Of a stretch of DNA of 64,000 nt, positions 7,769 through 14,320 are shown one piece after another (position 1 is the first letter of the stretch; every line of letters begins with the position of its first letter). The notes beneath the pieces were generated by a model. It searched no databases and was not told the origin of the DNA. It worked only from the letters and a program-made list of their open reading frames with translations. Source of the stretch: Deltaproteobacteria bacterium. GTDB taxonomy: Bacteria; Desulfobacterota; GWC2-55-46; JADFVP01. The stretch is taken from assembly GCA_029262515.1 (NCBI GenBank), contig JAJCZH010000027.1, forward strand, positions 1 through 64,000, in the 5' to 3' direction. A program made the translations under genes and the position numbers.

Positions 7769-7866
7769 CTACTATATAGTTATATTTAAAAGAATAATCG
7801 CAGTCCGTCGATCGCTAAGGCGGTCGATTAAATAACCGCTAAAATTTATTGGAAAGGTTTGTAAAC

Positions 7867-8373
7867 ATGATTTCGACCGAAGCTGCCAAAGAGCTCAATT
7901 TTCACCTCAATGCCGAACTCTACTCCTCTTACTTATATCTTTCGATGTCGGCCTACGCGTCCCACAAGGGCTGGAAAGGGGCTGCAAACTGGCTCTACGT
8001 GCAGGCGCAGGAAGAGATTATACATGTGCAGAAGGTGTATGCCTATATAGAGGATCAGGACGCGCGGGTTATTCTCGAAGCGATAGAGAAACCGGAGAGC
8101 GATTTTGGCGGCATGCTCGAACTCTTCGAGGCGGTTCTGGAGCACGAGCGGCATGTAACCGCCCGCATAAGAGAGCTTATGACGCATGCGCTCGCAGAGA
8201 ACGATCACGCCACCGAGACCTTTTTGCAGTGGTTCGTAACCGAGCAAACCGAAGAAGAGAAGACCTGCAAAGAGGTTATAGACAGGCTCAAGCTTGCGGG
8301 AGATACGGGCCTCGCTATCTTCATGGTCGATAATGAGCTCGGCGCAAGGGTTCTGCCTGCGGTCACCGTATAG
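7867..8373 (+). CDS. ftnA: ferritin (non-haem iron storage)
   Basis: A 168-residue ferritin that oxidises Fe(II) and stores iron in a 24-mer shell. The four-helix bundle carries the diiron ligands in NAELYSSYLYL, EEIIHVQKVY and later EQTEEEK. The ATG at 7867 is preceded by GGAAAGG; the longer TTG start is rejected. It ends at a strong terminator and faces the RDD gene tail to tail. Confidence 0.93.
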   Translation: MISTEAAKELNFHLNAELYSSYLYLSMSAYASHKGWKGAANWLYVQAQEEIIHVQKVYAYIEDQDARVILEAIEKPESDFGGMLELFEAVLEHERHVTARIRELMTHALAENDHATETFLQWFVTEQTEEEKTCKEVIDRLKLAGDTGLAIFMVDNELGARVLPAVTV

Positions 8374-9251: not shown

Positions 9252-10151
9252 TTACTTTATACCGCTTTGCCAGACAGCGCGACCAATAAAAAACGGCCCC
9301 ATCTCTTGAATATACGTAGAGGTCTGCTTTGTTTTGCGCATAGTCTCGACGAGAATCGAAAGAGGAGTAAGCTCGGCGCCGATAAGGGCTATAACGAAGT
9401 CGTTATCGTTCTTGTCTATTCCCGGGCAGAGCAGGCGTATATCGTGACCGAGGTCGGCGCTGCCGAAGGCGCGCCCTATTATGCCGTGCTCCATAAGTAT
9501 CTCGCCCTGCGTCTTGCGGTCTAAAAGCGCGAACTCTCCTTTGCGTCTTAGCGGGTACCAGACAGCCCATTTCCACTTGTCGTTCATGGCGGTGCGGCGC
9601 GGTTTGCGCAGAAGCCAGTCCTCAAGGTCGGGTTCGTGCCCAATGGCGTAGGTGCGCCCCATCATCGTATACTCCGGCAGGTGGGTCAGGTTGTTGAACT
9701 TTTTCGAGTTCAGCAGGTCGCGCAGCGTATCGGTAAAGAACTCCGGCGTTTCGGTCATGGTCAGGAGCCCGAAGCCTTTTGGGTCGTTTGCGTTGGCGTA
9801 GATTACGGCCTCTATGCCGCTCTTCTCGAATAGCTCTATTATCGGCTTTAGATCGTTGCAGCCGGTATATACCTGCAGGTGCACATAGAGCCTGTTGTCG
9901 AGACTCTGGGGCTCGCCGTCCTTAACGGCTCCCTTCTCGGACGTGTCTGTAATGGTCTCCATATTTATCCCGGCTACTACTGTCGGCATGCCGCCGGTCT
10001 TCGGTATACCTGCGGGATGACCGCCGCCGGTTTTAGGTATGCCTGCCGGGTGTCCTCCAGTCTTAGGTATTCCTGCCGGATGGCCGCCAGTTTTCGGAAT
10101 GCCCGCAGGGTGGCCGCCGCCCCCTTTATCGTCATTTTCGTTCTCGCTCAT
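9252..10151 (-). CDS. chlorite dismutase/HemQ-family protein with N-terminal HPAGIPKTGG repeats
   Basis: A 299-residue protein. Residues 85-299 match the chlorite-dismutase/coproheme-decarboxylase family. WYPLRR keeps a tyrosine (Y199) where HemQ has its catalytic Tyr. The proximal haem ligand is His222 in EHGIIGR, and GPFFIGR closes the fold. HemQ decarboxylates iron-coproporphyrin III to haem b using hydrogen peroxide; the Tyr-Pro pair favours this over chlorite dismutation (inference). Residues 10-54 hold four copies of HPAGIPKTGG, which are not part of the family. The AhbD-like protein upstream carries the same tag. A clear SD (AAGGAAGAG) precedes the ATG. Confidence 0.88.
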   Translation of the reverse strand: MSENENDDKGGGGHPAGIPKTGGHPAGIPKTGGHPAGIPKTGGGHPAGIPKTGGMPTVVAGINMETITDTSEKGAVKDGEPQSLDNRLYVHLQVYTGCNDLKPIIELFEKSGIEAVIYANANDPKGFGLLTMTETPEFFTDTLRDLLNSKKFNNLTHLPEYTMMGRTYAIGHEPDLEDWLLRKPRRTAMNDKWKWAVWYPLRRKGEFALLDRKTQGEILMEHGIIGRAFGSADLGHDIRLLCPGIDKNDNDFVIALIGAELTPLSILVETMRKTKQTSTYIQEMGPFFIGRAVWQSGIK

Positions 10152-10180
10152 AAGTAACTCTTCCTTTGGTAAATTTGTAC

Positions 10181-10216
10181 GGCCTGCTCTTCGGTATCAA
10201 CCGAAAAGAGTGGGCC
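10181..10216 (-). promoter_or_regulatory. leader hairpin before the HemQ-like gene
   Basis: GGCC-tg-CTCTTCGGT, a four-base loop and ACCG(AA)AAGAG-tg-GGCC form a stem of about 13 pairs in the minus-strand transcript, 30 bases before the start codon. There is no T run, so it is more likely a leader structure than a terminator. Confidence 0.5.
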
Positions 10217-10258
10217 GGAAAACCTGTAGACCTTCAATAGATTAGGCCCTTGCATGCA

Positions 10259-10318
10259 TTAGACCCAATGGGTTTGTCTCCACAGTAAAAGTAGCGGGAG
10301 AGAACCCGTTGGGTCTAA
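10259..10318. repeat. inverted repeat between the ahbD-like and HemQ-like genes
   Basis: TTAGACCCAATGGGTT (10259-10274) and AACCCGTTGGGTCTAA (10303-10318) are complementary with one G-T position. Each arm is also nearly self-complementary (ACCCAATGGGT). It could be a long hairpin or two operator sites. It sets the HemQ-like gene apart from the upstream haem genes. Confidence 0.6.
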
Positions 10319-10397
10319 GTATTTATATCTTTTCTATTATACATGCAAAACAGGCGGTCTGCTTGATTCGGACCTTTTTATTTTGCATTTATCTTTA

Positions 10398-11660
10398 CTA
10401 TTCGCTCGTTGAAGAGGCCTCGGCCGCTTCTCTCGCCTTCTTGGCGTCGCGTGCGTTTTTGGCCGATTCCGGGGGCTGGTAGGTGCAAAACGGCTCCTCT
10501 TCCATGTAATCCTCGGTAAAGGCGAAGGCTCGCGCCCTGCACCCTCCGCAGACGCTCCTGTACTCGCAGTATCCGCACCGGCCTTCGTAGTCGTCCCATG
10601 CGCGCATCTCCTTAAAGACGCTCGAGTTGTCCCAGATATGGTTGAACGGCTCTTTGCGTATATCGCCGCATTCGGTGTCGAGAAAGCCGCATATCTGGAC
10701 CTTGCCCGTGTTCGATACGAAAGCGAAACTCTGGCCTCCCATGCAGCCCTTGCTCATAGCGTCCATGCCGTGGGTCTCGGGGGTTACCTTAATGCCTTTC
10801 TCTTTTTCTTGCTGACGGAAGATCCTGTAGTAGTGGGGCGCGCAGGTCGGCTTGAACTGGATCGGAACCTTGTCCCTCATTTCGTAGAACCATGTAAGGC
10901 TCTTTTCGTAATCTTCAGGGCTTATTTCCTGATCCTTTAGCTCTGCGCCTCTTCCGGTCGGAACGAGCAGGAATGGGTGATGCGCTTTTGCGCCGAGGCT
11001 GATAACGAGGTCTAGAATCGCCGGAAGGTCGGCGAGGTTATGTTTAGTTATGGTGGTGTTGACCTGAAAATCGAGACCGAGTTTGTTGACGTTCTCTATG
11101 GCTGTCATTACGCTGGCAAAAGCGCCCTTGACGCGGCGGAAGTTGTCGTGGCTTTCCGCATCTTTACCGTCTATAGAGAAGCTGACGCGCTGAATGCCGG
11201 AGTCGATCATCTTCTGCACGGTCTCCTCCGTTACTAGGAAACCGCAAGGGGCCATAACCATGCGAAGGCCGAGTTTTGTGCCGTATGCCGCTATGTCCCA
11301 TATGTCGTCGCGCAGCATCGGCTCTCCTCCGGTCATGATCATGATCGGGTTTGAAAATGATGCGACGTTGTCGAGGAAGTCGTAACATTCCTGAGTCGTC
11401 AGCTCGTTAGGATACGGGCCGAAGCGCGCTGCGGCCCGGCAATGGATGCAATCGAGGTTACACGAGCGCGTAAGCTCCCATGCTATCAGTCTCGGAGACC
11501 AGACCTTGGCGCCCGGTTTGCCGTGTTTCGCTTCGGTGTCGTCCTGGGGGTGTATGCCTGCTCCGTGGCCGTGTCCTGCGCCTCCGGGGTGGCCTCCTGT
11601 CATCGGTATGCCGGCCGGGTGTCCGCCGCCGCCGTTTCCTCCTGGTGTATTTCCGCCCAT
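10398..11660 (-). CDS. ahbD: AhbD-like radical SAM/SPASM haem biosynthesis enzyme with HPAGIPMTGG N-terminus
   Basis: A 420-residue radical SAM protein. The SAM-cluster cysteines are C67, C71 and C74 (CNLDCIHC). TGGEPMLR follows. A C-terminal SPASM-like region has CGYCEYRSVCGGC and ends FCTYQP, as in the AhbC/AhbD group. AhbD removes two carboxyls from iron-coproporphyrin III to make haem b without oxygen; AhbC or a NirJ-like role is a less likely alternative. Residues 1-40 are Gly/His-rich and contain HPAGIPMTGGHPGG, the same tag as the HemQ-like protein. AAAAGGAGAG precedes the ATG. It follows hemB in the same direction. Confidence 0.87.
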   Translation of the reverse strand: MGGNTPGGNGGGGHPAGIPMTGGHPGGAGHGHGAGIHPQDDTEAKHGKPGAKVWSPRLIAWELTRSCNLDCIHCRAAARFGPYPNELTTQECYDFLDNVASFSNPIMIMTGGEPMLRDDIWDIAAYGTKLGLRMVMAPCGFLVTEETVQKMIDSGIQRVSFSIDGKDAESHDNFRRVKGAFASVMTAIENVNKLGLDFQVNTTITKHNLADLPAILDLVISLGAKAHHPFLLVPTGRGAELKDQEISPEDYEKSLTWFYEMRDKVPIQFKPTCAPHYYRIFRQQEKEKGIKVTPETHGMDAMSKGCMGGQSFAFVSNTGKVQICGFLDTECGDIRKEPFNHIWDNSSVFKEMRAWDDYEGRCGYCEYRSVCGGCRARAFAFTEDYMEEEPFCTYQPPESAKNARDAKKAREAAEASSTSE

Positions 11661-11783: not shown

Positions 11784-12758
11784 TTACTTGCCGAGCACAC
11801 GCGCGGCCTCTTTAGCGAAGTAGGTGATTATGATGTCTGCGCCCGCTCTCTTTATGGAGACCAGCGACTCCATCATCGATCTCTCTCCGTCCATCCAGCC
11901 TTTCGCCTCTGCTGCTTTTAACATCGAGAACTCGCCGGAAACGTTGTACGCGGCGGTCGGGTACTCGAACTGTTCTTTGATCCGGCGTATTATGTCGAGG
12001 TACGGCAGCGCCGGTTTAACCATCACTATGTCTGCGCCCTCCTCTATGTCGAGCGCTACCTCGCGCATCGCTTCGTTCGTGTTGCCGGGATCCATCTGGT
12101 AGGTGCGCCGGTCGCCGAACTGGGGCACCGACTCTGCAGCGTCGCGGAACGGGCCGTAAAAGGCCGAAGAGTACTTTGCCGCGTAACTCATTAGCGGTAT
12201 CTCGCCGAATCCGTTAGAATCTAGCGCGGTCCGTATGGCCCCCACCCTGCCGTCCATCATGTCGGACGGCGCCACGAGATCGGCGCCGGCTTCGGCATGG
12301 CTAAGGGCCTCTTTTGCCAGAAGCTCGAGCGTAGAGTCGTTATCGACGTCGTTATTCTTTATTATTCCGCAGTGGCCGTGGGAGGTGTACTCGCACATGC
12401 AGACGTCTGTCATAACTAAAAGGTCGGGCGTAGCGTCCTTTATCGCCTTTATCGCCGACTGGACCGGCCCGTCTGCGTCGAAGGCGCTCGAACCTGTCTC
12501 GTCCTTGTGCTCCGGTATGCCGAAGAGGATAACGCCGGGAATGTCAAGCGCGGCGATCTCTTTTGCTTCGGCGCCGAGCTTGTCTACCGAGAGCTGGTAG
12601 TGGCCGGGCATCGACTTTATCTCTTTCTTTTTGTTCTTGCCGTAAGTTATGAAGAGCGGCAGGATGAGGTCGTCGGTAGCAAGCGTGGTCTCGCGAACCA
12701 GCCTTCTCATCGTCTCTGAGTTACGGAGTCTGCGCGGCCTGTATGTCGGAAAATTCAT
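11784..12758 (-). CDS. hemB: delta-aminolevulinic acid dehydratase (porphobilinogen synthase)
   Basis: A 324-residue HemB that condenses two 5-aminolevulinates to porphobilinogen. The Schiff-base lysines appear in SYAAKYSS and [10 protein letters not shown]. The zinc-type cysteine site [14 protein letters not shown] is intact, so a zinc enzyme is expected. It lies 35 bases after the cobA-hemD stop. Confidence 0.96.
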
Positions 12759-12793: not shown

Positions 12794-14320
12794 TTACTTC
12801 TTTTTCGAATAGTACTTTTCCATGGCCGCGGTGAGTCCCGGTATTGTGTACTCTTTAGCCGTAATACCGACCTTAAAGCCGAGCTCTTTAGCCGTTGACG
12901 CCGTAACAGGACCTATGCAGGCCACGAGCGATCCTTTAAGAAGTTCCGCTGCCTCGCCAGACCTGAACATCGCGGCAAAGTTGGTTACCGTCGAGGAGGA
13001 GGTGAAGGTAACGGCGTCGATTTCACCCGACTCAAACCGCTTGCGAACCTCTGCTACACCCGAGTGCGGCCTTACGGTCTTGTAGACCGGCACCACGTCT
13101 ATGGAGCCACCGAGCCTACTAATCTCTATCGGCAGAATTTCGCGCGCCTTCAATGCTCTCGGCAAAAGAAATCTTTTTCCCTTGATGCCACGTTTTCCAA
13201 ATGCCTCGAGCACCCCTTCTGCAATGAACTTTTTAGGTACGAGGTCAACGCCAATTCCAAGTTCCTTTACCGCTGTTGCCGTTTGCGGACCGATGGCGCA
13301 GAGTTTGACCCCTTTTAGCTCTCGAACATCCAGACCGAGCTGTTTCAGGCGCCTAATAAAGTATTTTACACCATTGACGCTTGTAAAGATAGCCCAGTCG
13401 TAGGTCGAAAGACTCTTGATCGCAGCGTCGCATTCTTTCCAGCTCGGCGGGGCAACCGTCTTTATGGTCGGAAAGTTAACAGGTTCCGCACCCCTGTTCT
13501 CAAGCCGCGCGGTGAAGGAGCCGGCCTGGTCGGCGGTTCTCGTCACGAGCACGCGTCTGCCGAAGAGCGGGCGGGACTCGAACCAGTCGAGCTTCTCTTT
13601 CAATTTTACGACCTCTCCGACCACTATTACCATCGGCGGCAGCATTCCGGCCTCTTTAGAAAGTGTAACCATCTCGCCAAGTCTTCCGGTTACGCTCTGC
13701 TGCCGGGTCATCGTGCCCCAGCGTACAAGGGCCACCGGGGTGTCGGGGTCCCAGCCGTTTGCGAGCAGCTTCTTTCTTATGAGTGGAAGGTTCTTCCAGC
13801 CCATCAGGAAGACGAGCGTGCCGCGCCCTGTGCTTAAGCGGTCCCAGGCGATATTGGTACGTTCCTTTATGGGATCTTCCTGGCCGGTAATAAAGGTTAC
13901 CGCGCTTGAAAACTCGCGGTGCGTTAGCGGAATACCCGCGAATGCCGGAGCCGCTATCGCAGAGGTGACTCCGGGGATTATCTCGAAGTCTAGCCCCGCG
14001 TCCGTGATCTGCTCGGCCTCTTCCGCGCCCCTGCCGAAGATAAAGGGGTCTCCGCCCTTCAGGCGCGCAACCGTCTTGCCGCTACGCGCTTTTTTAATAA
14101 TTAGAGCGGTAATCTCCTTCTGGGTAATAATATTGGTAGCGCCCTTCTTACCTACGTAGATCCGCTCGGCATTGGCGCTCGCGTGGTCGAGAAGGCGCGA
14201 GTTGGCGAGAAAGTCGTAGATTATGCAGTCCGCGTTTTTTATCGCCTCAACGCCCTTTATCGTAATCAGCGCCGGGTCTCCGGGGCCTGCGCCTATAAGA
14301 AATACTGTGCCCTTTGCCAT
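12794..14320 (-). CDS. cobA-hemD: fused uroporphyrinogen-III C-methyltransferase / uroporphyrinogen-III synthase
   Basis: A 508-residue fusion. About residues 1-245 are CobA/SUMT: GAGPGDPALITIKG, RLKGGDPFIFGRGAEE and THREFSSAVTFITG. It adds two methyls to uroporphyrinogen III to form precorrin-2. About 255-508 are HemD (FGRRVLVTRTADQAGSF, FTSVNGVKYF, TFTSSSTVTNF), which closes the macrocycle. The protein feeds sirohaem, B12 and, through the sirohaem-dependent route, haem. It is the first gene of the minus-strand haem cluster and is preceded by a GGAGG and a repeat-rich leader. Confidence 0.95.
   Translation of the reverse strand: MAKGTVFLIGAGPGDPALITIKGVEAIKNADCIIYDFLANSRLLDHASANAERIYVGKKGATNIITQKEITALIIKKARSGKTVARLKGGDPFIFGRGAEEAEQITDAGLDFEIIPGVTSAIAAPAFAGIPLTHREFSSAVTFITGQEDPIKERTNIAWDRLSTGRGTLVFLMGWKNLPLIRKKLLANGWDPDTPVALVRWGTMTRQQSVTGRLGEMVTLSKEAGMLPPMVIVVGEVVKLKEKLDWFESRPLFGRRVLVTRTADQAGSFTARLENRGAEPVNFPTIKTVAPPSWKECDAAIKSLSTYDWAIFTSVNGVKYFIRRLKQLGLDVRELKGVKLCAIGPQTATAVKELGIGVDLVPKKFIAEGVLEAFGKRGIKGKRFLLPRALKAREILPIEISRLGGSIDVVPVYKTVRPHSGVAEVRKRFESGEIDAVTFTSSSTVTNFAAMFRSGEAAELLKGSLVACIGPVTASTAKELGFKVGITAKEYTIPGLTAAMEKYYSKKK

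Follow-up and report, generated by a model that had tools for sequence, protein, structure and literature searches.

The window (the whole stretch of 64,000 nucleotides of deltaproteobacterial DNA analysed here) carries the gene of a HemQ/ChdC-like protein of the chlorite dismutase superfamily (299 aa, positions 9252..10151) and, separated from it by 246 nt, the gene of AhbD, a radical SAM/SPASM haem b synthase (420 aa, 10398..11660). Both are located on the minus strand, as are, upstream of ahbD and in the same direction, hemB, which encodes the porphobilinogen synthase (11784..12758; NF006762, 525.8 bits for a cut-off of 297), and a cobA-hemD fusion encoding a uroporphyrinogen III methyltransferase / synthase (12794..14320). 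The gap between the first two genes contains a 16-nt inverted repeat (10259..10318; 94%, 28 nt between the arms), and a purine-rich stretch resembling a ribosome binding site can be read in the sequence directly 5' of each of the two starts. Promoter and terminator scans around these two genes gave no clear excess over shuffled sequences. A gene encoding a non-haem ferritin-like protein (7849-8373) lies nearby on the opposite strand.

The two proteins share an N-terminal tag, as was claimed by the earlier note. The HemQ-like protein begins with MSENENDDKGGGG, followed by four tandem copies of HPAGIPKTGG (10083-10112, 10053-10082, 10023-10052 and 9990-10019, i.e. 9990..10112 on the minus strand, with a DNA period of 30-33 nt). 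AhbD begins with MGGNTPGGNGGGGHPAGIPMTGGHPGG and carries a single HPAGIPMTGG (11592..11621, minus strand), which aligns with GHPHEVPGM of order-level relatives and is followed by HPGG and further Gly/His residues. The four HemQ-side copies had also been described as alike in protein and unlike in codons, and the counts agree: at least 12 nucleotide changes are needed to account for their differences, 12 or more being silent and none a replacement, a pattern that has a probability of about 1.4e-7 without selection. As the copies differ by silent changes only, it is the peptide that is kept, and the tag is under purifying selection. AlphaFold predicts that residues 1-54 of the HemQ-like protein are disordered; the AhbD tail has no predicted structure in a poor model built from 8 sequences (pLDDT 60.6).

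The earlier note had suggested checking whether the tag is limited to haem enzymes of this lineage; in the genomes searched, it is confined to AhbD and the HemQ-like enzyme. Scanning the 2.5 Mb genome with a degenerate DNA pattern for HPAGIP gave 5 sites, each within one of these two genes, and the reversed control pattern gave none; none of the 394 further genomes sampled across the phylum contains HPAGIPxTGG. When the tail was used as a query against 63 genomes of the class, strong matches were limited to the HemQ-like proteins and AhbDs of the genus plus the HemQ-like protein from one further family. Weaker matches (E 0.009-0.7) were mostly short frames, several of them with stops. The single HPAGIP matches in genomes of the order other than G009 and those of the genus were rejected as further carriers, since they fall in short or unrelated-looking frames. 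A search of the PDB for structural homologues of the tag returned a chance-level match only, and no plasmid-borne homologue was found.

AhbD is the oxygen-independent coproheme-to-haem synthase characterised from Methanosarcina barkeri and Desulfovibrio vulgaris. The protein encoded in the window matches TIGR04545 over the full model with 530.6 bits, above the curated cut-off of 500 bits. It has the CX3CX2C motif (Cys 67/71/74), the motif CX2CX5CX2CX17C (Cys 362/365/371/374/392) and Cys 306/324/331, i.e. the full SPASM set. The same two motifs, the second being C-terminal, and the full SPASM cysteines were described for an AhbD with two auxiliary clusters (PMC10452713).

The identity of its neighbour is less straightforward. 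Its C-terminal half scores above the cut-off of Pfam PF06778 (Chlor_dismutase, 48 bits), and the protein falls far below both NCBIfam ChdC models (33 bits for a cut-off of 235 and 20 bits for a cut-off of 253), for which reason it is called HemQ-like or ChdC-like here. The core of its AlphaFold model (pLDDT ~95) has coproheme decarboxylases as best Foldseek matches in the PDB (6xuc, 9mhq and 7q4f; E ~2e-12, probability 1.00). Y199 aligns with the catalytic Tyr135 of the ChdC of C. diphtheriae (numbering with an offset of 2, checked by the position of W183 in the W183Y entry 7q4f) and H222 with its proximal haem His, both being invariant in 40 sequences. On the distal side, known ChdCs use either a Gln in Firmicutes or a His of the linker loop in Actinobacteria (PMC7611857). 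Here, the column of Gln187 (Listeria) is occupied by D237, invariant like R239, and a candidate loop His172 is found in 22 of the 40 sequences. Fold and residues, both read from sequence and model, suggest that the protein plausibly acts as a coproheme decarboxylase. The proposal that both enzymes catalyse the same haem step is thus plausible: AhbD passes TIGR04545, the HemQ-like protein has a fitting fold and Tyr/His pair but not the ChdC scores, and both would plausibly convert coproheme to haem b. The HemQ-like family extends to Acidobacteria, Elusimicrobia, Omnitrophota, Nitrospinota, Nitrospirae, Planctomycetes and others, in most of which no AhbD lies close by.

The source of the coproheme was sought in the window's own genome, the search covering AhbC, hemE, hemH/cpfC and hemY/cgoX. 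There is no match to AhbC (TIGR04546) at E <= 1e-70 in this genome, so that a siroheme-dependent Ahb pathway was rejected. The genes hemE, hemH and hemY are adjacent on another contig (G000:C2:86031-89716; L331:7032-10716), all above cut-off (TIGR01464, TIGR00109 and TIGR00562). In other orders of the class, most genomes show the reverse, with AhbC-like proteins and without ferrochelatase. The lack of an AhbC match together with the presence of hemE-hemH-hemY leads us to infer that the ferrochelatase is probably the source of coproheme for both AhbD and the HemQ-like protein. Judged from gene content, AhbD probably ends a coproporphyrin-type route in this organism, i.e. a mixed route with AhbD as terminal enzyme. 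A protoporphyrin route, by way of HemN or HemF, may also operate.

The tag belongs to a wider set of AhbD tails. AhbDs of the class usually have a His/Pro/Gly N-terminal tail, most often KGHPHEVPGM, which aligns with GGHPAGIPMTG of the window, and a HPxx[IVM]P core is frequent among them. The exact HPHEVPGM is found in 24 of the 63 class genomes, once per genome and directly upstream of the AhbD core; controls gave 0 matches, no genome of the phylum sample outside the class has it, and the class's NirJ2-like paralogues lack such a tail. In AhbDs from the rest of the phylum the tails differ, with HPGGHPGG repeats in one family, and tail type and length vary widely even within the same order (HPGG, HPHEVP, GHGH or none). 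By alignment, the window tag is thus a local lineage variant of these His/Pro/Gly tails. The idea of a handle common to the two enzymes is borne out insofar as both carry the same motif, but not as a single new handle. The earlier note had also proposed that the handle lets the two enzymes share one upstream partner. The AhbD motif is present in genomes that yielded no HemQ-like gene (e.g. G008, G029 and G037), and it occurs with either route, in genomes that have AhbC-like proteins but lack ferrochelatase as well as in ferrochelatase-bearing ones. As AhbD keeps it with both routes and where no HemQ-like gene was detected, it probably did not evolve for donor sharing, and a shared upstream donor, whether AhbC or ferrochelatase, was rejected as its original role.

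On the HemQ side, the tag is repeated in close relatives, as expected by the earlier note: in two genomes of the same genus, the HemQ-like protein has four and three copies of HPAGIPK[TS]GG, encoded by still other codons. One of the two also has at least 2 copies on AhbD, at an assembly break (in G002, the assembly breaks inside the AhbD tag repeats, at the end of L017 and the start of L108). HPAGIP is found on both proteins only in the window's genus, namely in the window's own genome and in one relative. In G009, from another family of the same order, the HemQ-like protein has four HPAGIP, the core being kept and the flanking KTGG not, and a HemQ-like relative from Nitrospirota has HPQGIP. 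Outside the genus, HPHEVP is the usual form of the AhbD motif, and HemQ-like proteins often have tails of the HPGG type (G021, G025) or of the GHPGRHHG type (G012, G016, G035), or none. A Nitrospinota locus (L156:5878-9662) lines up three genes, one for a HemQ-like protein with an HPGG tail, one for an AhbC-like radical SAM protein, and ahbD, and genome G024 has two tailless HemQ-like genes (L040, L052) on separate contigs of ~9 kb.

In the tree of HemQ-like proteins, a single clade of 21 sequences (support 92/90) contains 11 of the 12 tailed ones, all except that of a Planctomycete. The genomes of these tailed sequences have AhbD in every case tested, apart from L107/G001, whose assembly is incomplete and ends at the gene. 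The same clade includes a subclade (98/88) of eight tailless sequences, none of whose genes adjoins ahbD. Among HemQ-like genes of the class, 10 of the 10 testable tailed ones adjoin ahbD, versus 2 of 10 tailless ones (Fisher p = 0.0007, an optimistic value as the genomes are related and the independent events few; the neighbour table was compiled by hand). Because the eight tailless genes form a single clade, the correlation may rest on few events.

Since the motif is kept with either upstream route, its constant partner should be the substrate (coproheme), the product (haem b) or something downstream. The tail is inessential for either reaction, as many HemQ-like proteins are tailless and AhbDs with other tails or none exist. 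The reading that we favour, tentatively and at less than even chances, is that a flexible tail, originally that of AhbD and common to its oxidative counterpart, handles coproheme or haem. It can be viewed as follows: the tag would be a flexible N-terminal tail, predicted to be disordered, exposing the short motif HPxx[IVM]P, and would have belonged to AhbD before becoming common to the ChdC/HemQ-like enzyme in lineages having AhbD. Both enzymes would use coproheme supplied by this genome's ferrochelatase. The tail would handle this coproheme or the haem b formed, its His side chains serving as weak axial ligands of the iron that aid capture or hand-over. The anaerobic and the oxidative enzymes would thereby plug into the same haem traffic.

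Conservation extends beyond the His to the Ile/Val and the second Pro, so that a protein-binding motif fits at least as well as iron ligation. HPxx[IVM]P could then be a short linear motif docking onto a common partner (a haem chaperone or acceptor, an electron partner or the other enzyme), the repeats raising avidity. The survival of the HPAGIP core without its KTGG flank in another family, the HPQGIP of the Nitrospirota relative and the adjacency of tailed HemQ-like genes to ahbD all agree with docking. Against it, the analysis turned up no candidate partner, the genomes that keep the motif do not all have the same upstream enzymes, and many tails are of the HPGG type, without the hydrophobic residue. 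Docking is thus somewhat unlikely, although it stays close behind owing to the hydrophobic residue and Pro, which are as conserved as the His; haem handling is put slightly ahead because the upstream enzymes vary and the substrate does not. A broader proposal would span both readings: the AhbD motif, hitherto undescribed, would recruit coproheme, haem or a haem-accepting partner, and its tandem copies on the ChdC-like enzyme would make the two enzymes interchangeable modules of one haem delivery line. We consider it rather unlikely in this full form.

The wide variation of tail type and length within the order, the predicted disorder and the tandem units of 30-33 nt would also be compatible with low-complexity extensions that promote solubility or arise from repeat slippage and have no specific ligand. 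This is doubtful, as the copies diverge by silent changes only, an exact HPHEVPGM recurs in 24 genomes and the tails are restricted to two functionally linked enzymes. By analogy with the linker of haloarchaeal PitA (PMC5746218), the tails might bind or buffer a divalent metal (Fe, Ni, Co or Zn) near iron-sulfur and haem enzymes, as would be allowed by the His/Gly composition and by the abundance of HPGG in the tails of several AhbDs from other families of the phylum, but this is very unlikely, the HPAGIP form having only about one His per 10 residues, which is weak for metal storage, and the conservation of I/V-P being left unexplained.

If haem handling by the tail is correct, it would bear on how coproheme or fresh haem passes between enzymes without release; the transfer of the product from ChdC was stated to be unknown (PMC7611857). 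A portable tail found on an anaerobic and on a presumed peroxide-using haem synthase, and class-wide on AhbD, provides a concrete peptide that can be tested. The locus also offers a case in bacteria where AhbD ends an apparent coproporphyrin-type route beside a ChdC-like enzyme. No description of the shared motif on both enzymes, of the repeats or of the conservation on AhbD was found in the open-access literature searched.

Compared with known systems, the AhbD of the window resembles the characterised AhbDs in its match to the curated model and its radical SAM and full SPASM cysteines, and differs from them by its HPAGIP/HPHEVP-type tail and by its genomic setting, where a ferrochelatase is present and no match to AhbC was obtained. 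The HemQ-like protein shares with ChdC/HemQ of Firmicutes and Actinobacteria the fold and the positions of the catalytic Tyr and proximal His; unlike them, it falls far below the curated cut-offs, has an Asp/Arg distal side instead of Gln187 of Listeria and carries the N-terminal tag. An AhbD-terminated coproporphyrin pathway, where AhbD is the last enzyme after ferrochelatase, has been mentioned (PMC7242693). AhbD would occupy the same place here, but it neighbours a ChdC-like enzyme and both carry the tag. The nearest precedent is found in Haloferax volcanii, whose PitA consists of a ChdC domain, a His-rich linker with affinity for Co/Ni and an ABM domain, and where PitA and AhbD are used for growth with and without oxygen (PMC5746218). 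In both cases, an oxidative enzyme of the coproheme decarboxylase type and AhbD are found in one organism, and in PitA too a flexible His-rich segment, metal-binding there, lies on the decarboxylase side. Therefore, the pairing of the enzymes and a His-rich segment on one of them were already known. Only in Haloferax are the phenotypes of deletions known, and an ABM domain found no match here. In PitA, the linker is internal to a fusion protein, whereas the locus of the window has a repeated N-terminal tag whose sequence is common to AhbD.
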